Source of the DNA: Psychroflexus sediminis
GTDB taxonomy: Bacteria; Bacteroidota; Bacteroidia; Flavobacteriales; Flavobacteriaceae
Direction: 5' to 3'
DNA: 64,000 nt
Assembly: GCF_900099815.1 (NCBI RefSeq)
Contig: NZ_FNCW01000005.1
Coordinates: forward strand, 124,001 to 188,000
Of the stretch, positions 23,538 to 50,413 are shown piece after piece. The translations under genes and the position numbers were made by a program. The number at the start of each line of letters is the position of its first letter. Position 1 is the stretch's first letter. The notes under the pieces were generated by a model. That model was not told the origin of the DNA, ran no database searches, and worked only from the letters and a program-made list of their open reading frames with translations.

Positions 23538-26066
23538 CTAAAATTGAAATGAAATAAAAACATTAGGTGTAAACTCCAGGCTTTTTATCCTCACATTTTC
23601 TACAGAAGTATTGAAATCATTTAATCTAAAGAATTGCTGGGTGAGGTTAGTACTATTAAACAAATTCAAAATACTAAAACCAGTCCTTATAGATGAATGC
23701 TTTAGCTGAAACTGGTAACTGGCGGTCAAGTTGAGTTGGAAATAATCCTTAAGATTACTCGCGTTTGGACTAAGAAAATTAAGTTCCGGGTTAATATCAG
23801 GTGTTAAAATAGGGTTTTCTGTATCGATCTCTGTTGTGGGTCTTCCCGCAAAATAGCGTCCACCCAGAGACAAATTAATTTCATCAGCGGTATAATTAAT
23901 ACCAAAGGCAGAACTTTGAGTGATTTCAAAATTATTGGCAAATTGCTGAGGAGAAAAATTCTTGAAATCATAAGTATTGTCCATGAGTGAAAAATTGAAC
24001 CAGAAATTGAAATCGTCTATTTGCTTTTGAACTAAAAACTCTACCCCGATAACTTCGTAATCTCCATTGAGCTGAAGAAACTCTAATTGATTCTGAAAGC
24101 CCTGGCTACCTGTTGAAATTCCTTCTATAACTTTATGGTATACACTGCTTTGAACCAACCATCCCTTTTTGTTGAAATTGACACCTACTTCTATTTGCTG
24201 ACTATTAATAATGGGGAAATCTTCCTCATCGGCCAGTATCCAGCGCCGTTTTTCCACACCTAAAAAATCCTGCTGCTGGTCTATGACTTGCGTGAGCGTT
24301 TGGTTTTTAATTTCGCCCAGCACATTCCATCTCCAGTACCGATTGGCCTGATAACTCAAATTGAACCGGGGTTCAAGTCTAATATCTTCAAAATCTGAAT
24401 AAAGATTTCCACGTATTCCAAGCCGAGTCCTTAACTTTTTATTTCTGGAATTATACTCCAGTTCAGCAATTCCAGAATGTGTGGTGAGCACGCGCTTTTC
24501 TCTTAAAATAACCTCCGGAGAAGTCACTTCATTATCATTCCTCACCCCAACTTCATTGAACTGATAGCCCGTATCTAAATGCAGATACTCCGAAAGCTTA
24601 TAGGAATCTTTGAGACTGAATTTGAGGTCTAAGACCTGGTTGACCTGCAATACCTCCTGATTGGATAAAACCGATTGATTAAAGGCTTCAAGCCTGTAGA
24701 AGGAAGCATTAAAAGCTACAGCTGTCGAGTGCCTTTTATTCCATTTGGTTTTATAACTTAGGTTGGCAAGAAAGTTCCCCTGTTCGAAATCATTACGCTT
24801 TTGCTCTGATGTTGTTTCTAAAACTTCGTCGAAAGTAAGTTGATTTTGAATGGCTAAAACATCGAAATTCAATCTATTATCTGCATTGAATTCATAGGCA
24901 TATTGTAACGAGACGTCGAAGAATTTAAGCTCTTGCTGCGTTGTAATTCTATTATCATTTCCCAGCTGTAAATCTTGAATTTCTGTATTTTGAAACACTT
25001 TATCCGTATACCCTTTATAAGTTGGAGATTCAAAAACATCTGTTAAGGATTTTCTAGCCGCAATTTGAAGGTCGGAATTGTCATTCAATTCTAAAAAAAC
25101 AGCTGCATTTGCACTTAAAAAATCCAATTGAAAAATTCTTCTATAGTCCTGAGAATGTTCCCGCGAAGAAATATCAATGACAGAAGAAACTCCTTCATTG
25201 AAAAAAGCTGATCCTCCGTTTTTAATGACTTTGATTTGATGATTTATAAGAGGATTGATAGCTGAAATCATTCCAAAAAAATGGCCGGATTGGTACATTC
25301 GAGAACCGTTCCATAAGATGAGATTTTGATCGTGAGTTCCCCCTCTTACATTTATTTGAGCGATGGTTTCATTTGTGTTTACAATACCTGGGACATACTG
25401 TAAACTATGTAAAACATCGGCATTAATCAGACCTGGAAGCACACCAAACTCCTGAGGTATTATCTTTAAACTATGGTCTGAATTCAAATAAATACCCTTG
25501 GTTAAATATTCTTTTATGATGATTTCATCCAACTCGATTTCTGGATATAAATAAAAAATTTCACAGACCTCCGAAGTTGAAAATTCAAAGCTTCCATCAA
25601 CATTAAAGTAATTAGGATGTGAATAGTGAAGCTTACCGAGATCTACTGAATCCATAACGAAAACTTTACCAAAAGAATTGGAAAATCCTAAGGTCTGCTT
25701 GTTATATATCACTTGAACATCCGCAATCGATTTGCCAGAGGTCGCATCGAAAAAACTTAAGCATTTAAAGGAATGAAGGAAATTTACAGCAACACTTTGC
25801 TCTGATATAAAAGTAAAGCTTAGCGGTAATTGCTTCTTTATAAAACCTAAAGCTTCTTCTAAGGAATAAGACTCTCCAGGTGAGAAAACTTCAATATTTT
25901 TTAAATCTTCGTGTAAATAATTAAAACTGACTTCAAATTTATTCTCCAGACTAGTTAATAATACAACAAGCTCAATCTTTTTTTGAGATTGAGCTTGGAG
26001 ATTGTAGCCTGATAAAATCAGGATGGCTACAAAAAAAACTAGAGTACTTAACTTAGAGCTTGACAT
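23538..26066 (-). CDS. TonB-dependent receptor with N-terminal STN-like signalling domain
   Basis: I choose the ATG at 26066, which gives a normal signal peptide (MSSSKLSTL...NLQAQ); an ATG nine codons earlier is also possible. The 842-residue protein has an STN-like region (about residues 28-100), a carboxypeptidase-like regulatory segment (about 105-190), a plug domain (VLHSLQYVPGI, IRVGGTHDQNLILWNG-type segment, about 215-315) and a 22-strand barrel ending in the aromatic FISFQF. STN domains contact FecR proteins, so it probably senses its ligand and activates the adjacent sigma/anti-sigma pair. It is not SusC-like and has no SusD partner. Its start overlaps the fecR end. Confidence 0.9.
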   Translation of the reverse strand: MSSSKLSTLVFFVAILILSGYNLQAQSQKKIELVVLLTSLENKFEVSFNYLHEDLKNIEVFSPGESYSLEEALGFIKKQLPLSFTFISEQSVAVNFLHSFKCLSFFDATSGKSIADVQVIYNKQTLGFSNSFGKVFVMDSVDLGKLHYSHPNYFNVDGSFEFSTSEVCEIFYLYPEIELDEIIIKEYLTKGIYLNSDHSLKIIPQEFGVLPGLINADVLHSLQYVPGIVNTNETIAQINVRGGTHDQNLILWNGSRMYQSGHFFGMISAINPLINHQIKVIKNGGSAFFNEGVSSVIDISSREHSQDYRRIFQLDFLSANAAVFLELNDNSDLQIAARKSLTDVFESPTYKGYTDKVFQNTEIQDLQLGNDNRITTQQELKFFDVSLQYAYEFNADNRLNFDVLAIQNQLTFDEVLETTSEQKRNDFEQGNFLANLSYKTKWNKRHSTAVAFNASFYRLEAFNQSVLSNQEVLQVNQVLDLKFSLKDSYKLSEYLHLDTGYQFNEVGVRNDNEVTSPEVILREKRVLTTHSGIAELEYNSRNKKLRTRLGIRGNLYSDFEDIRLEPRFNLSYQANRYWRWNVLGEIKNQTLTQVIDQQQDFLGVEKRRWILADEEDFPIINSQQIEVGVNFNKKGWLVQSSVYHKVIEGISTGSQGFQNQLEFLQLNGDYEVIGVEFLVQKQIDDFNFWFNFSLMDNTYDFKNFSPQQFANNFEITQSSAFGINYTADEINLSLGGRYFAGRPTTEIDTENPILTPDINPELNFLSPNASNLKDYFQLNLTASYQFQLKHSSIRTGFSILNLFNSTNLTQQFFRLNDFNTSVENVRIKSLEFTPNVFISFQF

Positions 26067-26940
26067 TATCAACAAAAATAAATTTATTTTCATTGATAAT
26101 TGTATAATTCATTTGATAAGTTTTACTCAATATGTCCAAAGCCAGAGATAAACTATCTGAAGGCAGTGTTCCCGTAAAACGCTTATCCTCTGTCACGTTT
26201 GAAATATCTGTTCTGATTTGATATTCTTTTTCCAATTCATGCATCACTTCAGCAAGACTTACATTTACAAATTGATGTGTTTTTGAAATCCATGATGGCT
26301 TTTCACTGTAGACGTTACTTTGTTCAATTTTCACCCCGTTATTATAAGTGATAAACTGACCTTTGGTAAGAATAACCTCTTCTTTTTCATAAGTTACTCT
26401 TACGGAACCCTCATAGCAAATGACTTTGAAAAATGAATCCCTTGCTTCTACATCAAATCGAGTTCCCAGTACTTTTACGTTCCCAAGCTCAGTTTTGACT
26501 GTAAATGTTTTCCCCTTTGCCACTTCAAAGTAAGCTTGCCCATTAAGTCTTGTCGTTCTATCAAAACTCCAGAACCAATTGTTGAATTGAAATTTACTGG
26601 CTTCAGCAAGAAATACTTCAGACTCATCTGGTAATAAAACGGTTTGCTGTGAATTGATTTTCGAAGTAAAGTCCTTCACAGAAAACAAAAATGCTAAAGA
26701 AGAAAATCCTAAAATAAGTAAAATTGAAGCTGCAATAGACCAGTTAAATTTTCTTTTATGCGCTTTATTTTGCCTGCTTTTCAATTCTTGAAAAACAGGC
26801 TCTTTTCTGAATTCTGGTTTCTGTAACTGAGCAGAATAGAATTTGATTTTTTGTAGCGTTTCAAAACCTTCCGTATCCTTCAGGAGGTCATCGCTAATTT
26901 TATTATCAAGCCAATCGGCTAAATTGTAGTTTTCTTTCAT
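26053..26940 (-). CDS. FecR-family anti-sigma factor
   Basis: A 295-residue inner-membrane regulator: a short cytoplasmic domain, one membrane segment (about residues 66-88), a periplasmic FecR domain (SQQTVLLPDESEVFLAEASKF ... GQAYFEVAKGKTFTVKTELGNVKVLGTRFDV) and a C-terminal DUF4974 domain (FVNVSLAEVMHELEKEYQI ...). It should hold the adjacent ECF sigma factor until the TonB receptor signals. The start lies 43 nt after the sigma gene, and a predicted sigma-dependent promoter lies between the two. Its 3' end overlaps the receptor start. Confidence 0.94.
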   Translation of the reverse strand: MKENYNLADWLDNKISDDLLKDTEGFETLQKIKFYSAQLQKPEFRKEPVFQELKSRQNKAHKRKFNWSIAASILLILGFSSLAFLFSVKDFTSKINSQQTVLLPDESEVFLAEASKFQFNNWFWSFDRTTRLNGQAYFEVAKGKTFTVKTELGNVKVLGTRFDVEARDSFFKVICYEGSVRVTYEKEEVILTKGQFITYNNGVKIEQSNVYSEKPSWISKTHQFVNVSLAEVMHELEKEYQIRTDISNVTEDKRFTGTLPSDSLSLALDILSKTYQMNYTIINENKFIFVDNVKL

Positions 26941-26961: not shown

Positions 26962-26986
26962 AACACCTCAATCTTTAATTACCCTA
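26962..26986 (-). promoter_or_regulatory. Candidate ECF promoter before fecR
   Basis: On the minus strand TAGGGTA (26986-26980), 14 nt, TGTT (26965-26962). The TAGGGTA overlaps the stop codon of the sigma gene and lies 40-46 nt before the fecR ATG. Same bipartite element as before three other genes here. Confidence 0.6.
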
Positions 26987-27505
26987 CTTAAAGGCCTCTA
27001 TTTTTTCTCTCAGACTTTGCAAAGCTTTTTGCATTCGCTTCTCCACAGCTTTCACACTTATGTTTAGAATTTCTGCAATTTCTTTATACGATTTCTCATC
27101 TATGCGATGAAGCAGGAAGGCAGTTCGTTGCTTTTCAGACAGGTCCTGAATAGCTCTTTCCAGCTTGAGCTTGAATTCCTGCTCCTCCATTTTATAATCG
27201 GGACCCTGATTATTTTCGGTTTGCTGAGGAACGCTATTGGCGTATCTGAGGACCACTTTTTTATGCTTATATCTATTGAGTGAAAGATTATTTGCAACTG
27301 TATACAAATATGATTTTGCATTGCTAAGAGGCACCTTTCTACAATTCTCCCATAGTTTTATAAAGGCTTCCTGTACAGACTCTTCAGCCATTTCTCGATT
27401 GCCAAATTTGTAATAGAAATAATTATTAATACCTTCAGAATAGGTGTCATAAACGCGTTTATATATCTTTTCTTCGCAAACATTATCAATAAGCTCTTTT
27501 TCCAT
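26984..27505 (-). CDS. ECF RNA polymerase sigma factor (FecI-like)
   Basis: The 173-residue protein has sigma region 2 (about residues 22-88, with EESVQEAFIKLWEN) and region 4 (about 112-168, with the helix-turn-helix SYKEIAEILNISVKAVEKRMQKAL) and no region 1 or 3, as in extracytoplasmic-function sigma factors of the FecI-like Bacteroidota group. It is first in the sigma-fecR-TonB receptor operon. Its own upstream region carries the proposed target element, suggesting autoregulation. Confidence 0.95.
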   Translation of the reverse strand: MEKELIDNVCEEKIYKRVYDTYSEGINNYFYYKFGNREMAEESVQEAFIKLWENCRKVPLSNAKSYLYTVANNLSLNRYKHKKVVLRYANSVPQQTENNQGPDYKMEEQEFKLKLERAIQDLSEKQRTAFLLHRIDEKSYKEIAEILNISVKAVEKRMQKALQSLREKIEAFK

Positions 27506-27537
27506 AGACTAAATGTACATTGCTCTTTTACTTTTTA

Positions 27538-27562
27538 AACAATCAAATACAAACTTACCCTA
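27538..27562 (-). promoter_or_regulatory. Candidate ECF promoter before the sigma gene
   Basis: Minus-strand TAGGGTA (27562-27556), 14 nt, TGTT (27541-27538), 51-57 nt before the ATG. It partly forms a 7-bp inverted repeat (TTACCCT/AGGGTAA, 27555-27579) with the divergent copy serving the lipoprotein gene. Confidence 0.62.
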
Positions 27563-27571
27563 TCTTGAACT

Positions 27572-27596
27572 TAGGGTAAAATTAAATTTGATTGTT
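27572..27596 (+). promoter_or_regulatory. Candidate ECF promoter before the four-repeat lipoprotein gene
   Basis: TAGGGTA (27572-27578), 14 nt, TGTT (27593-27596), 53-59 nt before the ATG at 27631. The flank GAACTTAGGGTA is nearly the same as GAACCTAGGGTA before the acidic lipoprotein gene near 30.5 kb. Confidence 0.62.
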
Positions 27597-27630
27597 ATAT
27601 ATAAGAAGGTTTTTAATAAATTTACAAATG

Positions 27631-28671
27631 ATGAAATATTTTTACCTTTTTATTTTTAGCATCCTATTCACCAGCTGCCAAAATGAAGAATTCTTTGAGC
27701 AGGTTGAGGATAATACAAGTTTATCCAGCCAAAGCGAGTTGAGTGATCTCATATCCAGACTAACACAAAATCCTACAGCCTTTGATGATTTCATAGATAA
27801 ATCCAACAGCCTGAGTCTTGAATTTCCATTTGAAGTTACCATCAATTCCGAAACTTCTTTCAACATTAATAAATTTTCAGATTATGAACTTCTTATCTCT
27901 GAATTATCTACTCTCACAGAAGATTACTCTGTAAGTATAAGTTTTCCCGTGGAGGTATCTCTCCCTAATTATGAATTCATCACTTTGCAAAATCAATCTA
28001 AATTCAATGCATTGATTGCCAGCGTGGAAGGCAGTTCTGAAATCACATGCTTGACATATGATTTCCCAATTGAAATCAATATTTTTAAGACAGAAAACAG
28101 TGTTTCAACACGTCGCAGTATTCGAAATGAAGCTCAATTTTACAACCTGATTAAAAATCTAAAACAAAACAATGGTTTTTACGAAATCCTATACCCCATT
28201 TCAATTTCTATCGATGGAGAATCACAATCTATATCTTCAAACACAGACCTTAACACAGCCATTCAAAACCTTGATGAAGACTGTTTTAATCCATCATTCT
28301 TAACCAATAAATTTTCGAGATTAAATCGCTTTGTGGAATTTATTAACTCAGGTGAATTTAGAATCGCTAATTATATAACTGATACTGGTGAAAATGAAAC
28401 TTTAGATTATGAAGATTTTAGATTCACATTTAATCCAAATAACAGCATTTCAGTTGAAAACATAGCCACGGGAGAATCCTTTTCTGGTCATTGGGAAATA
28501 GAGATTGATGATGATGAGCTTGTTTTTGATTTGGATTTTGATGGAAATGATATTTTAGATAATTTAAATGATGACTGGATCATAGAAGGATTTGCTAACC
28601 CGATTAGAATTTTACTAAAAGATGATCATAATGCGGGAGAAAACACTACTTTAATTTTTGAAAAAATCTAA
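27631..28671 (+). CDS. Lipoprotein with four internal beta repeats
   Basis: From ATG 27631 (an adjacent ATG at 27628 is equivalent) the 346-residue protein has a lipoprotein signal ending in LFTSC (Cys16). Residues about 60-227 hold four degenerate repeats of 40-50 residues, each with a hydrophobic-x-Phe/Tyr-Pro-x-x-[VI] strand (LEFPFEVTI, ISFPVEVSL, YDFPIEINI, LYPISISI) followed by a helix with L-I/N-x-L spacing. The C-terminal part (about 230-346) is Asp/Glu-rich. I do not recognise the family. It is divergent from the ECF sigma gene and shares its promoter element, so it is probably a target of that sigma factor. Confidence 0.85.
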   Translation: MKYFYLFIFSILFTSCQNEEFFEQVEDNTSLSSQSELSDLISRLTQNPTAFDDFIDKSNSLSLEFPFEVTINSETSFNINKFSDYELLISELSTLTEDYSVSISFPVEVSLPNYEFITLQNQSKFNALIASVEGSSEITCLTYDFPIEINIFKTENSVSTRRSIRNEAQFYNLIKNLKQNNGFYEILYPISISIDGESQSISSNTDLNTAIQNLDEDCFNPSFLTNKFSRLNRFVEFINSGEFRIANYITDTGENETLDYEDFRFTFNPNNSISVENIATGESFSGHWEIEIDDDELVFDLDFDGNDILDNLNDDWIIEGFANPIRILLKDDHNAGENTTLIFEKI

Positions 28672-28683
28672 AGATCAGCTTTT

Positions 28684-28914
28684 ATGGATAATGAAAAACC
28701 TTCTCAGGACGATTTAAAATCAAAGTTGAAAACCATATCTATTATTTTCTATATTTTTTTAATCACTTGGCTAGTCTTTATTGGATTTATAATTTTTAAC
28801 CTGGTAAGCGGAAAAGAAACTACGAGTTTATTTATCGGCACAATCCCCATAGTAGCCATTCTTATTATTTTAAGTCAGATCAAATCTAAAATCAAGAAAG
28901 AAATTAATTACTAA
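28684..28914 (+). CDS. Small two-TM membrane protein
   Basis: A 76-residue protein with a charged N-terminus and two hydrophobic segments (about residues 20-43 and 50-68), ending in a Lys-rich tail. It starts 12 nt after the preceding lipoprotein stop and is followed by a terminator, so it is the second gene of that unit. No family is recognised; coding status rests on spacing, start and membrane pattern. Confidence 0.65.
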   Translation: MDNEKPSQDDLKSKLKTISIIFYIFLITWLVFIGFIIFNLVSGKETTSLFIGTIPIVAILIILSQIKSKIKKEINY

Positions 28915-28937
28915 ATACGTTGTACAACTGCTTAGTA

Positions 28938-28970
28938 AAAAACTTCCTAAGAGATTGAGAAGTTTTTTTT
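28938..28970 (+). terminator. Terminator after the small membrane protein gene
   Basis: AAAAACTTC and GAAGTTTTT pair around a 12-nt loop and run into T8, 23 nt after the stop. Confidence 0.7.
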
Positions 28971-29355
28971 ATGTCTAAAGATCAATTTAAATGCAGCTTA
29001 TTTTTGTATTATTTCTGACTTTAAAAAAACAGCTGAAGAGTAACTTTAAACTCATCTAACTTTGCCTGACTGTATCACTTTTTTAGCTCCCTGTTCTTCA
29101 GCAGTGCAGTAACTACTGACTAGGCTTACATCATTTAATTGGAGCCTTTTTCTTGATCTAGTCAAGCTTAGGTTTTATTTTCTAGCCATTCTGAATGCTG
29201 TCTTTAAACTTTACAGCTCTTGAACCTCAATTAAAATTCGGATCAAGCCTTCGCTTCAGGCTAAGAAGAAGCCTTAAGCAAACTGAGCTGATATTTAATT
29301 GTTCACTCCTAAAGCTGACTCTCTGACCAGGACAACAGATTCTGAAAAAATTTTA
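28971..29355. other. Gene-free interval of about 385 nt
   Basis: Lies between two facing terminators. There are stops in all frames, no RNA gene fold that I recognise and no repeat longer than a 15-nt imperfect palindrome (CTTGATCTAGTCAAG near 29152). It may be decayed sequence. Confidence 0.5.
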
Positions 29356-29391
29356 TAAAAAAATCCCTGACACGAGAGTGTCAGGGATTTT
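29356..29391 (-). terminator. Terminator of the acidic lipoprotein gene
   Basis: A 14-bp perfect stem (AAAATCCCTGACAC with GTGTCAGGGATTTT) around GAGA, with T-rich sequence after it on the minus strand. Confidence 0.85.
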
Positions 29392-29413
29392 AAAATTGAG
29401 ATCTAAACTTTAA

Positions 29414-30433
29414 TTAATCATCAGAAAGATCTACATAATCTTTGATGGCCTCTTTTATTCTATTGGCCAACTCCCTGTTACCATCATTGTCTTCCGGACT
29501 GATTTCTATTATTCCATTTCCATTATTATCCGTGGCATTTGAGAGGTCTACCAGATTGAAAACAGTAACTAAATCAAATTCGAAAACTACGGCATTATTG
29601 TTGTCTTCTGTGATGATGAGGTTTTGACCTGCATCTTCGTAATCTACTTCAAATTCTTCACTGAAGGTATGGAAAAATTCAAATGCTATACCGGAAACAG
29701 TTCCTCTCATCAAAATTGACTTTTGATAAAGATCGCTCATCGGATTTTCACTTCTATCCATTTCAAATTCTACTTCATCATATTCTCCTACCGGGATTTC
29801 TACTTCAATAACGTTTACTACGCCTGAGCTTAAATTGAGTTCGAATGGACCGGTCAATTCAAAATCGTCTTCGAAATCATATCTGTCATCATCCCCTTCA
29901 TTATCGTCATCATCTTCATTTTCACAGCCCTCATCATCGATTTCTGTAGCATAAACGCTAAAATCACTCCTGAAGTAAATTTCGGTGCCGCTCTGTAATT
30001 CAATTTCATATTTATAAGGATCATCCTCGTCATCCTCATCTTCTAATTCTCCCTGACAAAAAGCATCGTTTGGATAATTTTCTTCGAGGTAAGTTGTAAT
30101 TTCACTAGGCAGTTCATCAAAGTTAAGACTGTCATCCTCGTCATCTGAACTCGCTGAAGAATCCCCTGAAATTCCAAATCCTTCAGCAAATTCCAATTCA
30201 ATATTTCTAATATTGATAAAAAATTCTGAAATTTCAACATCTGAAGATGCTTTACCCAGACTCGCTGTACTAAGTTTGGCTTCACTTGCTGTAGTAGCAT
30301 CAGTGGTAGCTGTAGCTCTAATTTCTAAATTTGATTTTTGTACAAATTCCTCATCAGGATTTGAATCCTCTGTTGAACAGGAAAATAGCAGTGCCATTGC
30401 TAATATTCCTGCTACTGGTTTTAAAATTTTCAT
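29414..30433 (-). CDS. Acidic lipoprotein, DUF4382-like with PepSY-like insert
   Basis: The 339-residue protein has a lipoprotein signal (LLFSC, Cys19). Residues about 30-80 (DVEISEFFINIRNIELEF) and 190-290 (NLSSGVVNVIEVEIPVGEYDEVEFEMD ...) resemble DUF4382, while about 105-165 (LPSEITTYLEENYPND ... YEIELQSGTEIYFRSDFSVYATEID) resembles a PepSY-like/DUF2874 unit. Asp/Glu runs surround the insert, and DNNGNGIIEI near the C-terminus looks like a calcium-loop motif. Function unknown; a surface calcium- or cation-binding role is a guess. It carries the ECF-type promoter element, so it is probably in the same regulon as the sigma operon. Confidence 0.8.
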   Translation of the reverse strand: MKILKPVAGILAMALLFSCSTEDSNPDEEFVQKSNLEIRATATTDATTASEAKLSTASLGKASSDVEISEFFINIRNIELEFAEGFGISGDSSASSDDEDDSLNFDELPSEITTYLEENYPNDAFCQGELEDEDDEDDPYKYEIELQSGTEIYFRSDFSVYATEIDDEGCENEDDDDNEGDDDRYDFEDDFELTGPFELNLSSGVVNVIEVEIPVGEYDEVEFEMDRSENPMSDLYQKSILMRGTVSGIAFEFFHTFSEEFEVDYEDAGQNLIITEDNNNAVVFEFDLVTVFNLVDLSNATDNNGNGIIEISPEDNDGNRELANRIKEAIKDYVDLSDD

Positions 30434-30462
30434 AGCTTAAAGGTTTTATTGTTTTGCTATAA

Positions 30463-30487
30463 AACAACACTAAAGACCCCTACCCTA
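30463..30487 (-). promoter_or_regulatory. Candidate ECF promoter before the acidic lipoprotein gene
   Basis: Minus-strand TAGGGTA (30487-30481), 14 nt, TGTT (30466-30463), 48-54 nt before the ATG. The copy lies about 2.9 kb from the sigma gene, in a separate transcription unit. Confidence 0.6.
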
Positions 30488-38921: not shown

Positions 38922-40583
38922 TTAATAAAAAACTGAATAAAGCACTGCCAAAATTATCATTACCGCAAAGGCGCTAATGTTGAATACAGGACCGGTTTTA
39001 AACGTGTCTTTCTTCAGTTCGATTCCTTTTTCATCATCCTGGCCCTTGTTCTGTAACCAACTGATAAACATAATGATTAACATAGTTACAATAGTAGTAT
39101 ACCCCATCTGGTTAAGGAAAGGCTGGATAGGAAAGTAAGGTTCCAAAGACGTATTCGCTACCCATCCTGTGGATCCAATTTTAAAAAACATAGCCACGGG
39201 TATAGAGATGATCGCTCCCCAAATCGCCGCTTTGTTGGTTGCTTTTTTCCAAAATAATCCCAATAAAAAAACTGCTAAAATTCCAGGACTCACCAGGCCA
39301 GTATATTCTTGAATGTACTGAAAGATCTGGTTTAAACTATCCAGTGCCGGTGCTACAAGCACACCTATACCAAGAGCTACAAAAGAAGTAATTCTACCTA
39401 CTTTCACGGTTTTCTTATCACTTGGATTTTTATTGATGTATTGCTTGTAGATATCCATTGTGAAAATGGTAGAAGTCGAATTCAGCATAGAAGCTAAAGA
39501 AGAAACGATTGCAGCCGATAAAGCCACGAAAGCAAGTCCTTTAAGTCCAGTTGGCAGAAATTGAATAAGCCAAGGATAGGATTTGTCAGCTTCTTCCAGA
39601 CTTGGAATATTGATAAGTCCCTCTGCCCCAAGTCGAGCTAACATTTCAGGATCATTAACAATTACATAAGCCGCAATACCAGGAATTACAATGATAAAAG
39701 GAAGTAATAATTTTAGAAAAGCAGCTAAAACGATTCCCTTCTGAGCCTCTCTTAGATTTTTTGCAGCTAGTGCACGTTGAATGATATACTGGTTAAAGCC
39801 CCAATAATAGAGATTTGCCACCCACAGGCCACCGATTAAAACACCGATTCCCGGTAAATTAACGTATTGGGGATTACTTTTATCCAAAATCATATCGAAT
39901 TTTTGAGGAGCTTTATCGTAAATAATACCAAGCCCTTCCCACATGCCATCACCTCCAGATACGGTATTCAGTGCCAAGTATGTCGTTGCAAGTCCTCCAA
40001 CGATGAGAAATACCACCTGTATAGAATCTGTCCAAGCAATAGAAGAAAGTCCGCCATAGATAGAATAGGCTGCTGCAAACATGGCAAGGCCAATGATAGC
40101 CCACGTCATATTAACACCCATCACCGTATTCATCGCCAAGGCTCCAAGGTAGAGAACTGAAGTGATATTGACGAAAATATAGAGCGCAATCCAGAAGACG
40201 GCAAGGATGGTTTTTAGGTTGGTTGAGAAACGCTTTTCAACAAATCCTGGTATGGTATATATCCCCTTTTCAATGAATATGGGTAAGAAGTATTTCCCTA
40301 CAATGAGCAAGGTAATTGCAGCCATCCACTCATATGAAGATATTGCTAAACCTACGGCAAAGCCAGACCCGGACATTCCTATAAACTGTTCTGCTGAAAT
40401 ATTTGCTGCAATAAGCGAGGTACCAATTGCCCACCACGGGAGCGATTTGCTTGCTAAAAAATAATCTTGTGCGTTTTTTTGATGCCCCTTTTTATCTCTG
40501 GACATCCAGAGCCCAATAAATAAAATAAGAATAGCATAAGCTATAAAAATGACGTAATCTAAGGTTTCAAATCCTGTGTTCAT
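38922..40583 (-). CDS. Sodium/sugar symporter (SSS/SGLT family)
   Basis: The 553-residue protein has about 14 membrane segments and SSS-family blocks: WMSRDKKGHQKNAQDYFLASKSLPWWAIGTSLIAANIS at the start region, GGLSSIAWTDSIQ, the NQYIIQRALAAKNLREAQKG segment, and LSSASMLNSTS-like LASMLNSTSTIFTMDIY. It is last in the gal operon, so galactose (or glucose) uptake across the inner membrane is the likely job. It is 11 nt after galT. Confidence 0.93.
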   Translation of the reverse strand: MNTGFETLDYVIFIAYAILILFIGLWMSRDKKGHQKNAQDYFLASKSLPWWAIGTSLIAANISAEQFIGMSGSGFAVGLAISSYEWMAAITLLIVGKYFLPIFIEKGIYTIPGFVEKRFSTNLKTILAVFWIALYIFVNITSVLYLGALAMNTVMGVNMTWAIIGLAMFAAAYSIYGGLSSIAWTDSIQVVFLIVGGLATTYLALNTVSGGDGMWEGLGIIYDKAPQKFDMILDKSNPQYVNLPGIGVLIGGLWVANLYYWGFNQYIIQRALAAKNLREAQKGIVLAAFLKLLLPFIIVIPGIAAYVIVNDPEMLARLGAEGLINIPSLEEADKSYPWLIQFLPTGLKGLAFVALSAAIVSSLASMLNSTSTIFTMDIYKQYINKNPSDKKTVKVGRITSFVALGIGVLVAPALDSLNQIFQYIQEYTGLVSPGILAVFLLGLFWKKATNKAAIWGAIISIPVAMFFKIGSTGWVANTSLEPYFPIQPFLNQMGYTTIVTMLIIMFISWLQNKGQDDEKGIELKKDTFKTGPVFNISAFAVMIILAVLYSVFY

Positions 40584-40594
40584 AAGTAATACCT

Positions 40595-41647
40595 TTAATT
40601 GGAAGATTTATAATGCGTAGTTGGTAGTTCTCTTAAAATTTTTGCGGCCTGTTCTGCAGAAATATCGCGCTGAGCCTCGCCGAGCATTTCGTATCCCACC
40701 ATAAATTTCTTTACAGTGGCACTTCTCAATAACGGCGGATAAAAATGCATATGAAAATGCCATTCCGGATGAGGCAGACCATCGGTTGGCGCTTGGTGAA
40801 TTCCAGAAGAATACGGAAAAGATGTTTTAAACAAATTATCATATTTCACAGTGATAACTTTCAACATATGCGCAAATGCTTTTTCTTCTTTCGGTTGTAA
40901 ATCTGCCAGACTTGCAAAATGTCTTTTACTGATAAGCATAGTTTCATAAGGCCAGATGGCCCAAAACGGTACCAAAGCTACGAAATGCTCATTCTCAGCT
41001 ATAATTCGCTCTTGATGAAGCAATTCTTCATCCAGGTAAACCTCAAGGAGACTCTTCCCGGTTTTCTGATAATAAGCGTTTAGATTATCCTGCGTTTTTT
41101 CTGCTTTCGAAGGAATTGAAGATTGAGACCAAATTTGACCGTGGGGATGGGGATTACTACACCCCATCACAGCGCCTTTGTTTTCAAAAATCTGAACGTA
41201 ATTTATAAATTCATAAGCTCCTAGTTCCAGATACTGTTGCTTCCAGGTTTTTACGATAGCTTCAATTTCCGATAATTCCATTTCTGGAATTGTTAAATTA
41301 TGCTTAGGTGAAAAACAAACCACTTTGTTGATACCACGCTCTGGTTTAGATTGCATTAAATTCGAGGTTGTATCTGCAGTTACTTCCAATTCCTCCTTTA
41401 ATAAGGATGGAAAATCATTTTCAAAGACATAACAAGCCTCGTAATCTGGGTTTTTGTTTCCGTTGGAACGTGTATTACCGGGACACAAATAACAGTCTTT
41501 ATCGTATTCAGGGCATTGCGCTATGTTTTGCTCCTCTTCCTGACCTTGCCATGGACGCTTTGTCCTTTGTGGAGAGACCAAAACCCATTCGTCTAACAAT
41601 GGATTATAGCGCCTGTGAGGATGTTTACTGGAATTAAATTTTTGCAT
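40595..41647 (-). CDS. galT: Galactose-1-phosphate uridylyltransferase
   Basis: GalT swaps UMP between UDP-glucose and galactose-1-phosphate in the Leloir pathway. The 350 residues contain the active-site HPHGQIW (His-Pro-His) near residue 165 and two metal-type Cys pairs: CYLCPGN near residue 52 for structural zinc. The end region has HQAPTDGLPHPEWHFHMHFYPPLLR. It sits between galK and the symporter. No galE is in the window. Confidence 0.96.
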   Translation of the reverse strand: MQKFNSSKHPHRRYNPLLDEWVLVSPQRTKRPWQGQEEEQNIAQCPEYDKDCYLCPGNTRSNGNKNPDYEACYVFENDFPSLLKEELEVTADTTSNLMQSKPERGINKVVCFSPKHNLTIPEMELSEIEAIVKTWKQQYLELGAYEFINYVQIFENKGAVMGCSNPHPHGQIWSQSSIPSKAEKTQDNLNAYYQKTGKSLLEVYLDEELLHQERIIAENEHFVALVPFWAIWPYETMLISKRHFASLADLQPKEEKAFAHMLKVITVKYDNLFKTSFPYSSGIHQAPTDGLPHPEWHFHMHFYPPLLRSATVKKFMVGYEMLGEAQRDISAEQAAKILRELPTTHYKSSN

Positions 41648-41659
41648 TAAAATTTATTT

Positions 41660-42829
41660 TTATTGGACTTGACAAAGTCCATCGCTTATGTGAATAGGAA
41701 ACACCCTTAAATTCACATTGAATTTTTCAATATACAAGCTTGATAGTTTTTCTATAAGCTCATCTTTCGATTCCTGATGGACCAGATTGATCGAACAGCC
41801 ACCAAACCCACCACCCATCATTCTTGCTCCTAAAACCCCAGGAATGTCCATAGCTTTTTCCACTAGAAAATCCAATTCTGTGCAGCTTACCTCATAATCT
41901 TTAGACAAACCCTGATGGGTCTCAAACATCAATGTCCCAAGTTTTTCAAAATTATTATTTTGAATTGAAAAAGCCGCCTCATTTACTCTTTGAATTTCTT
42001 TAACTACGAAACTACAACGTTTAAATAAATTTTCTCCTAGTTCTGTCCGAAGAGATTTCACTTGAGAAAAGGTGCAGGATCTAAAACTCATCACTTCTGG
42101 ATAATGAGATTTTATGATTTCCAATCCAGTTTCGACCTCTTCCCGTCTCACATTATAACCCGATGTAAGGTGCTCATGTTTTACATTACTATCGAGTAAT
42201 AAAAAGGAATAAGAATCCAAATCTGCATCGAAATAACTGTAATCCAATGTTGTACAATCCAATTTTATAGCTTTGTCTTTTTTACCAAAAACACATGCAA
42301 ACTGATCCATGATACCGCATTTAACTCCAACAAAAGTATGAGAGGTTTGTTGACCCATCAAGGCAATATCTTGCTTAGATATCCGTAATGAAAATAAATC
42401 ATTTATGGCGTAAATCAATCCGCACTCTAAAGCTGCCGATGAAGACAATCCTGCACCAATAGGAATTGTACTGCTAAAAACCAGCTGAAAACCTTTCATT
42501 TTAAATCCTTTTTGTTTAAGTTGATGCAAACCTCCAAGAATAAAATTAGCCCACATTTGCTTCACTGGCTTGAGATCATCGGTCAAATTAAAACTAAATT
42601 CCTCATCCAAATCTTTGGCCACCAGCACACACGCATCAGACTGTACTGGCGAGATCGCAAAACAAATATATTTGTCTATAGCGGCTGGCAGCACAAAACC
42701 ATCGTTGTAATCTACATGTTCGCCAATAATATTGATGCGTCCTGGCGATAGAAAAATTGATGTTGCCGGGGTGTTGAATCTTTCTGCAAAATGATTGCTG
42801 GTCTTTAGTATTAACTCCTCTTTCATCAC
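41660..42829 (-). CDS. galK: Galactokinase
   Basis: GalK phosphorylates alpha-galactose at C1. The GHMP-kinase signature blocks are all present: substrate-binding PGRINIIGEHVDYNDGFVLP (about residues 29-48), ATP-binding PIGAGLSSSAALE (about 123-135) and C-terminal GARMMGGGFGGCSI. Its ATG overlaps the stop of the GH2 gene (ATGA), so translation is coupled. 389 residues, usual length. Confidence 0.96.
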   Translation of the reverse strand: MMKEELILKTSNHFAERFNTPATSIFLSPGRINIIGEHVDYNDGFVLPAAIDKYICFAISPVQSDACVLVAKDLDEEFSFNLTDDLKPVKQMWANFILGGLHQLKQKGFKMKGFQLVFSSTIPIGAGLSSSAALECGLIYAINDLFSLRISKQDIALMGQQTSHTFVGVKCGIMDQFACVFGKKDKAIKLDCTTLDYSYFDADLDSYSFLLLDSNVKHEHLTSGYNVRREEVETGLEIIKSHYPEVMSFRSCTFSQVKSLRTELGENLFKRCSFVVKEIQRVNEAAFSIQNNNFEKLGTLMFETHQGLSKDYEVSCTELDFLVEKAMDIPGVLGARMMGGGFGGCSINLVHQESKDELIEKLSSLYIEKFNVNLRVFPIHISDGLCQVQ

Positions 42830-45162
42830 TTGAGCTCTTCTCTTAGTATTAAACGATCAGATTCTAAACCTTCCCCTTCAGCAAAGACTTCGACAGAATC
42901 TAAATCGCCTTTGGTTTTCAACAAAATACTGGCAATTCCAGCTTCAGCTTTTATTGGATTTTGACCAATAAGCTCTGCAGATTCGCTTTCAATACTAAAC
43001 CTGATCTTCCCATCAAAAGAGGGAACTAAAGTACCTTCCTTATCAGTGATTTCAGCATATAAAAAGACAACATCTTCCTGGTTTTTGCTTATCTCAACGC
43101 CAGAAGTGTCTATTTTCAATTTTATTTCTTTTGCTTCTGAAGGTGTTTTTATCTCATGTAAGGCAACTTCTTTTCCATCGATATAACCGACAGCCTTAAG
43201 CGTTCCAACTTCAAATTCAGATAACTCGAATTCAAAGGGGGGTTGTGGTAATTCACTTGAAAACTTATTTCGGGTTGGTTTTTGTTTAGATAGTAGTTTG
43301 TCGTTCAGATACAAAGCAACCTCATCGGTATTGCTAAATACCCGCACATTTAGCGGAGATGAGGGCGTCCAGAAATTAGCTATAAAAACCATAGGTCCAG
43401 ACTCTAAAGGTTCTGGATAGGAGATAGCTGAAGACCGCTGACTTTTATAAAAGTAATAGGTGAATTTAGGAATTCTAAAAATATCACTGATGCCGGAACT
43501 CTCAATATCAAAAGCATAGCCTCGATTATAATCAAACATCAGCCAGTTGGCTTGCCCTATGGTATGCTCACCTTTCAAATTGGAATTGAAAGCTTCCTGA
43601 AAATTCAAAGCTTGTTGGAGTAACCGCTTTTCTCCAGCGCCACGAAGTTGCCTACTGTTTCGTTCGGCTTCAGAAAGATCTGCAAATGCAGTTTGGTTGA
43701 AACCTGCATTTTGCGCATAATACTCCCAGTCCCCATATTCTGCAATGAAAATCTTTCTCGCATTCTCATCATAGTCGTTCCAATACCCCGGAGCTTTAGC
43801 ATGCTGCCTGGCCGGGATATAAAGATCGTAACTTGGATGATCTATCCACCCTGCCGAGTAAGTGTCCTTATAAGGTAACTCAGCCTTTAGAAGAAGATTG
43901 GCTTTGATCATAAACTCCTCCGTCATGGGACTTTCATTCAAAGAATTTTCCCAAAACACAATGCTGGGATGATGACGATCTCGCCTGGCAAAATCTTTAA
44001 TTTCTTGATACGCATTTTCTTGAAATTTTTCTCCTCCGAAAAATTGCCATCCTGAAATACAATTCATCACCAAAAGCCCAACTTCATCACATGCATCCAA
44101 AAAAGCTTCAGATTGCGGATAATGCGATAGTCTTACAAAATCAAAACCCGCATTCTTTATTTTTACAGCATCTCTATAATTGGCTTCATCGGAAATAGCA
44201 TAACCAATATAGGGGTATTCCTGATGACGATTGGTTCCATTAATAAATAAATTCTCACCGTTCAAGAAAAATCCATCTTCGCTGAGTTCAATAGCTCTTA
44301 TTCCTGTTGTCAGTTGTTTGATGTCTAAGGTCTTTTCACCTTCCATCAATTTCACACTAACACGGTATAATCTTGGAGAATGAATACCCCAGAGTTCAGG
44401 ATTTTCAATGTCAATTTCAGTTGAAAGGACTCGATCGCTATTTGAAGAAACTTCAACAGCTTCAGTCAGCTTTGATAGTATTTTCCCGGAAGGAGATTCA
44501 AATTCAATTTTTGCAGAGATGCTTTTGTCTTCAGCAGACTCATTTCTGAAATGAACCTTAACCTTGGCTATAGCTTTTTTATTTGAAATTGAATCAAAAT
44601 GAACTAAAATCCCACCGCTGTTTACTTTTCTGGCTGCAACAGGATCGGTTATGTAAACTGAATTGGTTTCAATTAAATTGACATTCCTGTAAATCCCAGC
44701 GTAGTAATTGAAGTCTAGTTGTTCTAAAAGCTTTCCAGGAGGAATGTCTGGATTATCTTCGTTATTCACTTTTATCACGATGGTGTTTTGAGCTTCCAAA
44801 ACATCGGTTAAATCTAGCGTAAAGGGCAGATACCCTCCCTGGTGATGCTTTAATAAATACCCGTTTACCCAGACCCAGGCTTCATGCATAACGCCTTCAA
44901 ATTCTAAAAAAGTTTTCTTGCTCTCTGGATTTTTTTTGAAGGTCTTTTTATACCAGGCATCGCCCTGCCACTGGTCATTGACCACTAAAGGCTCTATCTG
45001 TGGCGTGTGAGGAATATGAATGGAATCCCACTCCAGTGAGGCAGAATCTTTAGTGAAGGTCCAGTCTGAATTGAAACTTGTATTTATTCTCATAAAATGA
45101 TCGGTTTCCTGGCAAGAATAGAGAAATACGATAAAAGTCAAAAAAATAAATGATTTTTTCAT
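42826..45162 (-). CDS. Glycoside hydrolase family 2 beta-galactosidase, lipoprotein
   Basis: I start at ATG 45162, 2 nt after the GH53 stop; it gives a lipoprotein signal (FLYSC, Cys19). The 778 residues hold the GH2 sugar-binding, immunoglobulin-like and TIM-barrel domains, with predicted acid/base Glu410 (in NSLNESP) and nucleophile Glu475 (in AEYGDW), then extra beta domains. In this operon it should release galactose from beta-galacto-oligosaccharides made by the neighbouring endo-galactanase. Outer-membrane or surface location is inferred from the lipid anchor. Confidence 0.92.
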   Translation of the reverse strand: MKKSFIFLTFIVFLYSCQETDHFMRINTSFNSDWTFTKDSASLEWDSIHIPHTPQIEPLVVNDQWQGDAWYKKTFKKNPESKKTFLEFEGVMHEAWVWVNGYLLKHHQGGYLPFTLDLTDVLEAQNTIVIKVNNEDNPDIPPGKLLEQLDFNYYAGIYRNVNLIETNSVYITDPVAARKVNSGGILVHFDSISNKKAIAKVKVHFRNESAEDKSISAKIEFESPSGKILSKLTEAVEVSSNSDRVLSTEIDIENPELWGIHSPRLYRVSVKLMEGEKTLDIKQLTTGIRAIELSEDGFFLNGENLFINGTNRHQEYPYIGYAISDEANYRDAVKIKNAGFDFVRLSHYPQSEAFLDACDEVGLLVMNCISGWQFFGGEKFQENAYQEIKDFARRDRHHPSIVFWENSLNESPMTEEFMIKANLLLKAELPYKDTYSAGWIDHPSYDLYIPARQHAKAPGYWNDYDENARKIFIAEYGDWEYYAQNAGFNQTAFADLSEAERNSRQLRGAGEKRLLQQALNFQEAFNSNLKGEHTIGQANWLMFDYNRGYAFDIESSGISDIFRIPKFTYYFYKSQRSSAISYPEPLESGPMVFIANFWTPSSPLNVRVFSNTDEVALYLNDKLLSKQKPTRNKFSSELPQPPFEFELSEFEVGTLKAVGYIDGKEVALHEIKTPSEAKEIKLKIDTSGVEISKNQEDVVFLYAEITDKEGTLVPSFDGKIRFSIESESAELIGQNPIKAEAGIASILLKTKGDLDSVEVFAEGEGLESDRLILREELK

Positions 45163-45164
45163 GT

Positions 45165-46178
45165 TCAATTTTTAAAAGCATCTAATGCTGGTGAAGGTGT
45201 TCCATCTTCCTGCCATGCACTAAGGCTGTATCCACTCCATGACTTTTCGCCCTGGGGCTCCCAATACATAACGCCCAGACCTCGATTATCAGGCACATCT
45301 CTTACGGCTTTAATGGTAGCTTCAAGCAAATTTTTGGTGTTTTCAACCTGGTCGTAAAGCCCGCCTACTTCCACAATCATGACGTCTTTGTCATATCTTT
45401 TCACCATATCTTTAAGATTAAATGCAAGATTATCGATTGTTTCTGTATAATCCTTTTCTACCCAGTAAGGGTAGTAGGATAAACCAATAATATCGTATTT
45501 CACTTGTTGTTCGGAAGCATTATCATAAAAGTGGACAAATTTCTCATTATTATCTCCTTCGTCCACATGAATGATCACCTGAATATTGTCATCCACTGCT
45601 TTTGTAGCTTCATAGCCAGCATTCAAGAGCTGCCCCAATTGATCCCAATTATCTGTACTCCCTTCCGGCCATAGCATCCCACCAGGAATTTCATTACCTA
45701 CCTGCACCCATTTTGGTGTCACACCTCCTGCTTTTACTGCGGAAACTACCTCGAAGGTATGTTCATAAACTTTTTCTTTTAACTCCTTAAAGCTTAGGTC
45801 CTCCCAGGCTTCAGGTTTATGTTGTTTACCCGGATCTGCCCAAGAATCACTGTAATGAAAATTGATCATCACATCCATACCCATCTCTTTTGCTCTTAAA
45901 GCCAGGTCTACGGTTTCTTCTTGACTGCAGTGGCCACTTCTTGGATCGCTTGATGGATTTACAAACACCCGTAATCTTACTGAATTCATTCCCCGATCTT
46001 TTAAAAGCTGAAGCACATCTGCTTTATTGCCTTCTTCGTCTTTGAATTCATAACCCGTGGCTTCCATTTGTGGTAACCAGCTTACATCAGCCCCTTTGGC
46101 AAATTCAGCAGTAGCGGTTTCATCTGTGCAGGAAACAAAAAGCAAACTGATAATAAGAAATCTAAAATATTGTATCAT
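45165..46178 (-). CDS. Arabinogalactan endo-beta-1,4-galactanase (GH53), lipoprotein
   Basis: The 337-residue enzyme cuts beta-1,4-galactan, the side chain of pectin rhamnogalacturonan I. It has a lipoprotein signal (LFVSC, Cys17) and the GH53 blocks GADVSWLPQMEATG, NSVRLRVFVNP, NFHYSDSWADPGKQ, with predicted acid/base Glu163 (VGNEIPGG) and nucleophile Glu270 (IVEVGG). It sits between galM and the GH2 gene, spaced by 2 nt on each side. Confidence 0.94.
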   Translation of the reverse strand: MIQYFRFLIISLLFVSCTDETATAEFAKGADVSWLPQMEATGYEFKDEEGNKADVLQLLKDRGMNSVRLRVFVNPSSDPRSGHCSQEETVDLALRAKEMGMDVMINFHYSDSWADPGKQHKPEAWEDLSFKELKEKVYEHTFEVVSAVKAGGVTPKWVQVGNEIPGGMLWPEGSTDNWDQLGQLLNAGYEATKAVDDNIQVIIHVDEGDNNEKFVHFYDNASEQQVKYDIIGLSYYPYWVEKDYTETIDNLAFNLKDMVKRYDKDVMIVEVGGLYDQVENTKNLLEATIKAVRDVPDNRGLGVMYWEPQGEKSWSGYSLSAWQEDGTPSPALDAFKN

Positions 46179-46180
46179 AA

Positions 46181-47209
46181 TTAATTTTTTGTGTGTTCAC
46201 TCGATAAGTTCATAAATTGAAATTTTGTGTGTTGCTGGTAAACATCATCTTTTTTCAAAATAGCAGATGGAAAATCATCAAGGTTGGGAGCATCGGGAAA
46301 GGCCTGGGTTTCAAAACAAATCCCACTGGTCTTATGGTAGTTTATTTGGCCTTTTGATGTTAATTTGGAATCTATTTTTCCACCTACATAGACTTGCAGA
46401 CAAGGCTGATTGGTATAAACTTTCATGTGCAAATCGTTTTTTTTACTTTTTAGTTCTGCCGCTAAATCGTTTTCGAAATCCAGCACAAACGCATCGTCGA
46501 TCTGACTAGGAACCGGTTTGAATTTTGAGAAATTACAGGGGTGATTTTCTAGCGAAATCCGTTGACCCGTAGGTACATTTTCCTCATCTGTTTCTAAAAC
46601 TTTATCAGCCTTAATCTTCAGTTCCTGGTGGGTCACATCCCCTTGATGCCCGTCAAGATTAAAATAAGAATGTTGCGTTAGATTGACCAAAGTATCTTCC
46701 GAAGAAGTTGCCTGGTAGTGAATAACTAACTCGCCCTTTAAAGTCAATCTATACCTGACTTCAACTTTGAGCTCTCCTGGATAGTTTTGGTCCATATGAG
46801 GACTGGTTATTGCGAAGGTAATAGAAGGTTCATCTCCCACTGTTTGTGAACTAACAGACCATATTTTATTACTAAAGCCTTGTGTTCCTCCATGAAGGTG
46901 ATGATCCCCTAAATTCTTATCGAGTTGAATAATTCTACCGTTCAATTCAAATTCGGCATTTCTTATTCTCCCGGCAAAACGACCAACTACAGCTCCAAAA
47001 TAAGGAGCATGACCAAACTCAAAAGAATTTACATAATCTCCTGGTGAATTAAATCCTAAAACCACCTCAACAAGGCTGCGATTTTGAAGTGGGACTTTTA
47101 AAGAGCTTATGGTCGCTCCATAGTTAAGCACCCTCAACTGCATCCCTGTTTTGGAGGTGAGAACAAATTCCTGAATTGATGCTATTTGATTTTTAATTTC
47201 TATCGACAT
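46181..47209 (-). CDS. galM: Aldose 1-epimerase (galactose mutarotase)
   Basis: GalM converts beta- to alpha-galactose for galactokinase. The ATG at 47209 gives a 342-residue protein; a longer frame begins inside the operator region and is rejected. Family marks: NYGATISSLKVP, GRFAGRIRNAEFELNG, HLHGGTQGF, and the catalytic Glu in CFETQAFPDAPN with His in LTQHSYFNLDG. It is first in the six-gene operon, directly downstream of the shared regulatory region with the GntR gene. Confidence 0.94.
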   Translation of the reverse strand: MSIEIKNQIASIQEFVLTSKTGMQLRVLNYGATISSLKVPLQNRSLVEVVLGFNSPGDYVNSFEFGHAPYFGAVVGRFAGRIRNAEFELNGRIIQLDKNLGDHHLHGGTQGFSNKIWSVSSQTVGDEPSITFAITSPHMDQNYPGELKVEVRYRLTLKGELVIHYQATSSEDTLVNLTQHSYFNLDGHQGDVTHQELKIKADKVLETDEENVPTGQRISLENHPCNFSKFKPVPSQIDDAFVLDFENDLAAELKSKKNDLHMKVYTNQPCLQVYVGGKIDSKLTSKGQINYHKTSGICFETQAFPDAPNLDDFPSAILKKDDVYQQHTKFQFMNLSSEHTKN

Positions 47210-47217
47210 CGTTTTAG

Positions 47218-47226
47218 CAAAAATTA
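47218..47226 (-). promoter_or_regulatory. Possible -7 element of the galM operon
   Basis: Minus-strand TAATTTTTG followed by C resembles TAnnTTTG with one extra spacer base, 8 nt before the galM ATG. Confidence 0.35.
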
Positions 47227-47248
47227 GATTTATATTTGAATAATTCTT

Positions 47249-47286
47249 ACCAGTACCTACCAGTTTGAGTTGGAGTTCCAACCAGT
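47249..47286. promoter_or_regulatory. Operator-like ACCAGT triple repeat between galM and the GntR gene
   Basis: ACCAGT occurs at 47249, 47259 and 47281 in the same orientation, with start-to-start spacings of 10 and 22 nt (one and two helical turns). A palindrome TTGGA-GT-TCCAA (47270-47281) lies between the last two. The block sits in the 91-nt divergent region, where the adjacent GntR-type regulator would be expected to bind. Confidence 0.55.
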
Positions 47287-47300
47287 TTAATTCTCATGCT

Positions 47301-50398: not shown

Positions 50399-50413
50399 TT
50401 CGACAAAAACTAC

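Follow-up and report, generated by a model that had tools for sequence, protein, structure and literature searches.

In the FecI/FecR/FecA system of Escherichia coli, an extracytoplasmic function (ECF) sigma factor, a FecR-type regulator and a TonB receptor are found together with a promoter before the receptor operon. As that system is described, fecIR is driven by sigma70 and Fur without autoregulation, and FecI serves a single promoter (PMC9249621). More generally, AAC at -35 and CGT at -10 mark classical ECF promoters and were a hallmark of the first ECF sigma factors to be studied; the definition of the class was later narrowed to the domains sigma2 and sigma4. Targets are predicted from known pairs and from autoregulated ECF sigma factors, and FecI-like ECF sigma factors are named exceptions to autoregulation (PMC8103513). 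Promoter prediction based on autoregulation therefore hardly reaches the FecI-like group. Here we describe a FecI-like locus within a stretch of 64,000 nucleotides from Psychroflexus sediminis of the Flavobacteriaceae (contig NZ_FNCW01000005.1, positions 124,001 to 188,000; hereafter the window). A bipartite element, originally predicted as TAGGGTA-N14-TGTT, precedes the gene of an ECF sigma factor (26984..27505, minus strand), the neighbouring fecR gene and two lipoprotein genes, lp1 and lp2. Comparison across the family indicates that the element is very probably a bipartite promoter read by the RNA polymerase holoenzyme that carries this sigma factor.

The locus resembles E. coli fec in that an ECF sigma factor, a FecR-type regulator and a TonB receptor are encoded together, with a promoter proposed before the receptor operon. 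It differs in that the element stands before the fecR-receptor operon, several lipoprotein genes and, within the genus of the window, the sigma gene, and in its -35 box, TAGGGT (PMC9249621). Two short boxes at a rigid spacing, assigned to sigma regions 4 and 2, are as in ECF promoters generally, whereas TAGGGT and TGTT depart from the AAC/CGT hallmark (PMC8103513). Within the Flavobacteriaceae, an ECF-type promoter motif is also described for Flavobacterium psychrophilum SM6. That motif has a CGT -10 box and stands, among others, before type IX secretion genes, and no word beginning with GGGTA was found in the main text of the paper (PMC9723704). The Dma/Das ECF21 system of Bacteroides thetaiotaomicron likewise places a Bacteroidota ECF sigma factor under a membrane anti-sigma factor, but the latter is described as spanning from the outer membrane to the cytosol and the system controls vesiculation; no word beginning with FecR was found in the main text on it (PMC13088901). 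No consensus for this flavobacterial FecI-like group was found in the literature searched, although an earlier prediction within a large ECF reclassification is possible. A search for TAGGGTA together with sigma factor returned only Clostridioides work, and neither GTAGGG nor TAGGGT occurred in the flavobacterial ECF literature surveyed, among the matches listed.

Results

All four copies of TAGGGTA-N14-TGTT are exact at the positions, spacing and orientation first proposed. The proposed promoter of the sigma gene lies at 27538..27562 on the minus strand, with the -35 box TAGGGT(A) at 27556-27562 and the -10 box TGTT at 27538-27541, 57 nt before the ATG. Divergent from it, the proposed promoter of the repeat lipoprotein gene lp1 occupies 27572..27596 on the plus strand (-35 box 27572-27578, -10 box 27593-27596), 56 nt before the ATG at 27628. 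The copy assigned to the fecR-TonB receptor operon lies at 26962..26986 on the minus strand (-35 box 26980-26986, -10 box 26962-26965), 46 nt before the ATG; it overlaps the end of the sigma gene, whose stop codon is the TAG of the -35 box. The copy of the acidic lipoprotein gene lp2 lies at 30463..30487, also on the minus strand (-35 box 30481-30487, -10 box 30463-30466), 54 nt before the ATG. These distances agree with the 46-59 nt given originally. As had also been claimed, the window holds no fifth exact copy, and its lone other TAGGGTA, at 59087-59093, falls within the moxR open reading frame (ORF; 58674-59627). A scan of the window allowing two mismatches was uninformative, with 17 matches against 15.8 expected from shuffled sequence, and was dropped.

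Two details of the original prediction require amendment. The final A of TAGGGTA had been taken as a core base, but in relatives TAGGGT is followed by A, T, G or C, which places that base outside the core; by this comparison the conserved core is TAGGGT-N15-TGTT, with the last A optional. The spacers had also been called unlike one another, and duplication dismissed for that reason. This fails for the sigma and lp1 copies, which have the last 11 spacer bases (ATTTGATTGTT) in common and form an inverted repeat as a pair. It holds among relatives, where the spacers differ, and recent copying therefore cannot account for the element.

Conservation among near relatives was examined at 21 loci, of which 18 belong to the genus and 3 to the family, counting sites with the 14-base spacing and at most one mismatch. 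The element precedes the sigma gene in 15 of the 21 and fecR in 13, with one more fecR gene having both halves at a spacing of 13. It precedes lp1 in 19 of 20 lp1 loci, once far upstream at -130, and all 14 lp2 genes in loci chosen by their sigma factor. Three further lp2 genes with the element were reached through the pattern itself, with matches off the sigma locus in G011, G014 and G020. Orthologous promoters in the genus retain both halves while their spacers diverge. The lack of conservation that would have counted against the original proposal is not seen: the element is kept before the orthologs of fecR, of the divergent lipoprotein gene and of the acidic lipoprotein gene. In six loci the sigma and fecR matches are just 12-56 nt apart and fecR lacks the element; five of these carry the sigma element, a pattern expected if sigma and fecR form one transcript. 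No copy was found within 130 nt upstream of the receptor gene at any of the 21 loci, allowing two mismatches and spacings of 13-15. A spurious 21% sigma match in L078 was ignored in this count, which also missed the sigma element of L103 through the start codon chosen; that element is present in the count that follows.

The wider set holds 97 loci, of which 80 were gathered by similarity of the sigma protein, not by the element, and 17 are near-relative loci, the window included. The 80 are the best 80 of 544 confirmed, and the sampling favours the EKRM type because the helix EKRM falls within one of the two peptide patterns searched. L092, L100, L102 and L105 were excluded as belonging to the same genomes as L117, L116, L118 and L135. 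The core was found upstream of 79 of the 94 fecR genes and of 80 of the 97 divergent genes. Before the sigma gene it occurs in 15 of 97, all within the genus (15/18, as against 0/79 outside). At a spacing of 15 there are 160 matches, while every other spacing from 1 to 30 gives at most 3, and 60 permuted motifs yielded a mean of 0.07 matches and a maximum of 4. The extended consensus of the family reads GTAGGGT-N15-TGTT-N-TA. A further 35 copies remain in the 1.47 Mb covered, 26 of them before starts that, by eye, resemble those of lipoproteins or secreted proteins. At four loci (L151, L155, L156 and L172, three of them Aquimarina) a 525-aa divergent gene replaces lp1 and the element is kept; its product in L151, the only one of the four scanned, is a 7TM-transglutaminase. 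In G014 the element precedes a gene for a secreted protein with a type IX secretion system (T9SS) tail. The same four loci were seen to have a second element before the next gene, which looks ATP-grasp-like by eye.

The element also follows the distribution of the sigma family. Across 100 genomes from the family, with presence of the sigma factor called at a profile E-value of 1e-40 or better, the extended element is present in 38 of the 66 genomes that have the sigma family and in 1 of the 34 that lack it (Fisher p 1.6e-8); its reversed control gives 13/66 versus 3/34 (p 0.25). These genomes hold 100 matches; a listed sigma gene lies no more than 400 nt from 38 of the matches, in a distance count that took in 42 of 112 sigma positions. 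Among 23 genomes of the genus, the 15 with a sigma ortholog (at least 55% identity) hold 1-6 exact TAGGGTA-N14-TGTT copies, 56 in all against 19 for the reversed control. The 8 without an ortholog hold 0-2 (Mann-Whitney p 1.4e-4), in a comparison that counts the copies at the sigma locus too and in which two of these 8 genomes are 80% and 52% complete.

The whole genome of P. sediminis (2,973,500 bases, the window being contig C23:124001-188000) contains six exact N14 copies, of which the window accounts for four, and one copy of the reversed control. For TAGGGT-Nk-TGTT the count is highest at k=15, where there are 11 matches; the 29 remaining spacings average 2.7 (Poisson p 1.3e-4). An equal frequency in coding DNA is not borne out, in that 7 of these 11 copies precede a gene on the same strand; the four that lie inside other ORFs were taken as chance and rejected as targets. 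The L006 copy, at a spacing of 13, was likewise rejected, as no gene faces it.

The members of the regulon first proposed (sigma, FecR-TonB receptor and two lipoproteins) find support, but the set appears larger than claimed and the putative autoregulation of sigma is limited to the genus. Two more lipoprotein genes, both outside the window, are predicted to belong to it. One, at C31:246723, has a TAGGGTA-form element ending 43 nt before its ATG and also has the element upstream in G004; the other, at C23:82778, encodes a DUF4382 lipoprotein (E 3e-29) with a TAGGGTC-form element approximately 52 nt upstream. A DUF4304 gene at C26:294944 (L112:2308-2826) is possibly a further member. Its element lies at an unusual 118 nt upstream, and in two relatives (L073, L081) at 115-117 nt with different spacers. 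The relatives named here were met through the pattern itself, which also led to those lp2, lp3 and DUF4304 sites that lie off the sigma locus. In G001 and G018, DUF4382-like lipoprotein genes beside the cluster carry the element, the family scan having covered the G001 protein only.

The -35 half co-varies with the putative recognition helix of the adjacent sigma factor. This comparison covered 197 distinct sigma loci (207 before removal of duplicates; the sigma row G033:C6 is absent), in which the stretches downstream and divergently upstream of sigma were scanned with a site matrix leaving -35 bases 5 and 6 unweighted. Training of this matrix used the TAGGGT sites from the 97 loci, which builds a partial demand for TAGG and TGTT into it; 74 of the 394 promoter searches fell below the score threshold, set at the maximum of 300 random sequences. 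Where residue 159 in region 4.2 (window numbering, EKRM-Q159-KAL) is His, Ser, Gln, Met or Thr, the -35 box is TAGGGT in 220 of 222 scored sites. Where it is Tyr, a different box is present in 97 of 98, mostly with A at base 5 (mostly TAGGA). Fifteen genomes contain both sigma types, and 62 of their 63 scored promoters fit the adjacent sigma factor. A third subgroup (L286-L310), with the helix E(Y/H)RIY and hence Tyr or His for K156, has C as the first -35 base in 13 of 19 scored sites; its -35-like boxes, for example CAGGAG and AAGGAA, are found with TGTT kept, on the downstream side of sigma as well as divergently upstream. The change from Met to Ile at residue 158 was considered as the source of specificity and rejected: Ile158 with His or Ser at 159 keeps TAGGGT in all 7 scored sites, 5 more being under the threshold. 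A profile alignment with SigW (5wuq) sets residues 155-158 (EKRM) on KTRI of the last helix and residue 159 on the following His. That face of the last helix contacts the -35 box in ECF structures.

By this evidence the flavobacteria may hold three sister FecI-like subfamilies that share the -10 box TGTTnTA and the spacing and have mutually exclusive -35 boxes: TAGGGT with EKR(M/I)(H/S/Q), TAGGA(A/G) with EKRIY, and mostly CAGGA(G/A) with E(Y/H)RIY. Residues 156 and 159 would set the choice and so insulate the circuits within one cell, a proposition to which we give even chances.

On present comparisons, only the genus of the window has the element upstream of sigma. Of the 79 loci outside the genus, 53 have a housekeeping-type box, TAnnTTTG, within 100 nt upstream of sigma, in 42 cases 20-35 nt from the start; the box is found in 7% of shuffled sigma upstream regions. 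Inside the genus it occurs in 6 of 18 loci, at -47 to -86, and it is absent from all 94 fecR upstream regions. Viewed side by side, TAnnTTTG before sigma in 53/79 loci outside the genus (L116-L195) and the ECF element in 15/18 inside give the appearance of a sigma promoter swap.

The 173-aa product of the sigma gene is a FecI-like ECF sigma factor with regions 2 and 4 only and the recognition helix EKRMQKAL; TIGR02985, Sigma70_r2 and Sigma70_r4_2 all match above cutoff. Downstream on the same strand, 26053..26940 encodes a FecR-type anti-sigma factor of 295 aa (PF04773 FecR and PF16344 FecR_C above cutoff), and 23538..26093 a TonB-dependent receptor of 851 aa with a Plug domain, whose ORF overlaps fecR and has no element of its own. 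A domain scan of the window receptor gave no match to the STN signalling domain. The N-terminus of receptor orthologs matches FecR_C at an E-value of 0.1 or better in five of six scanned, above cutoff in L160 only, where STN reaches 0.076; a signalling domain is thus weakly detected. The lp1 gene (27628..28671, plus strand) encodes a lipoprotein with predicted beta repeats and a lipocalin-like C-terminal domain. Its structure model has a predicted local distance difference test score (pLDDT) of 82 and a predicted template modelling score (pTM) of 0.54, and its fold weakly resembles those of 5byp, potempin E and 4zgf; a fold search made for lp1 alone returned mainly lipocalin-like matches. Directly 3' of lp1, a small hydrophobic ORF at 28684-28914 on the plus strand may, by eye, belong to the same transcript. 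The lp2 protein (29414..30433, minus strand) appears DUF4382-like with a PepSY-like insert; both DUF4382 and PepSY_like fall below cutoff in the window, and a relative in L166 passes the DUF4382 cutoff.

Elsewhere in the window, judged from the ORF sequences, 38922-47281 has the look of a cluster for galactose or galactan use (transporter, GalT, GalK, glycoside hydrolases and mutarotase), with a GntR-like regulator divergent from it at 47265-48299. Two adjoining ORFs at 49256-51382 resemble EgtB and EgtD of ergothioneine synthesis.

Discussion

Our results support the claim that the element is the promoter of this ECF sigma factor: it is kept with a rigid geometry before the same genes, accompanies the sigma family across genomes and varies in step with the recognition helix. 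In the proposed mechanism, ligand at the TonB receptor would send a signal to FecR, by which sigma is freed. Region 4.2 of the freed factor would then read the -35 box TAGGGT and region 2 the -10 box TGTT across a fixed 15-base spacer, and the fecR-receptor operon and a set of surface lipoproteins would be transcribed from TAGGGT-N15-TGTT; in the window's genus the sigma gene itself would also be switched on. The promoter step is well supported by the comparative data. That transcription starts at the element we infer, as we do, by homology with FecI-FecR-FecA, that FecR restrains sigma and the receptor gives the signal.

Other explanations were weighed. The palindrome TACCCTA-N9-TAGGGTA between sigma and lp1 could be the dimer site of a separate DNA-binding regulator and the element its operator, given that the two divergent copies stand back to back in the window and several relatives with 9 bases between them. 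However, neither the fecR copy nor the lp2 copy of the window has an inverted partner in the flanks inspected, both being single, and in G012 the divergent copies are separated by 3 bases. The element moreover always faces the gene, mostly starting 42-62 nt before the start codon (exceptions at -81 and -130), and its -35 half co-varies with the recognition helix of sigma, all of which makes an operator very improbable. Descent, or membership of a repeat family, might instead keep the element irrespective of promoter function, since the loci are homologous and two window copies have 11 bases in common. Such an origin would not explain why it is mainly the two boxes that are kept, at one spacing only, while spacers and flanks diverge, nor why the element also stands before genes as unrelated as those of the Aquimarina 7TM-transglutaminase and the T9SS-tailed protein of G014. 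With conservation confined to the boxes, this account is already contradicted and we consider it scarcely credible.

A narrower alternative concerns the sigma copy only, which might be non-functional as an ECF promoter, with sigma made from a housekeeping promoter and fecR, lp1 and lp2 as the only true targets. The sigma copy of the window shares part of its spacer with a housekeeping-like TAAGTTTG at -52, and outside the genus the housekeeping box precedes 53 of 79 sigma genes and the element none. Against this, the exact core precedes sigma in 15 of the 18 genus loci, the near-relative count with up to one mismatch gives 15 of 21, and the sigma element is present in five of the six loci where fecR lies close behind sigma and has none of its own. 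We therefore regard a non-functional sigma copy as unlikely; the overlap with TAAGTTTG makes double control of the window sigma gene possible.

Besides this overlap, several observations weigh against the element being the promoter of this sigma factor. The exact core is missing before 15 of 94 fecR genes and 17 of 97 divergent genes; 7 fecR and 7 divergent genes among those without it are of the Y159 type. The Tyr159 class forms one side of a single branch (SH-like approximate likelihood ratio test, SH-aLRT, 99), which reduces the switch of helix and promoter to one event, and two other clade-linked columns, 43 and 38, equal or nearly equal column 159 in information. We can accordingly only infer the causal residue. 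The extended form GTAGGGT-N15-TGTTNTA has no match in the P. sediminis genome. In 14 genomes of other families the exact form gives 19 matches and its reversed control 16, which is background, so that single unplaced copies mean little. Finally, lp2 of G020 (L080) retains the full element, yet the genome, a single contig with a stated completeness of 99%, has no such sigma factor at 1e-15 and gives only matches of 22-30% identity. This lp2 is a candidate orphan target, or may be served by another sigma factor.

A consensus with strong comparative support would allow the regulons of FecI-like sigma factors to be predicted genome by genome. For the organism, it would tie the signalling chain of a TonB receptor to surface lipoproteins. 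Across the family, natural paralogs with different -35 boxes would provide the material for a test of the recognition code.

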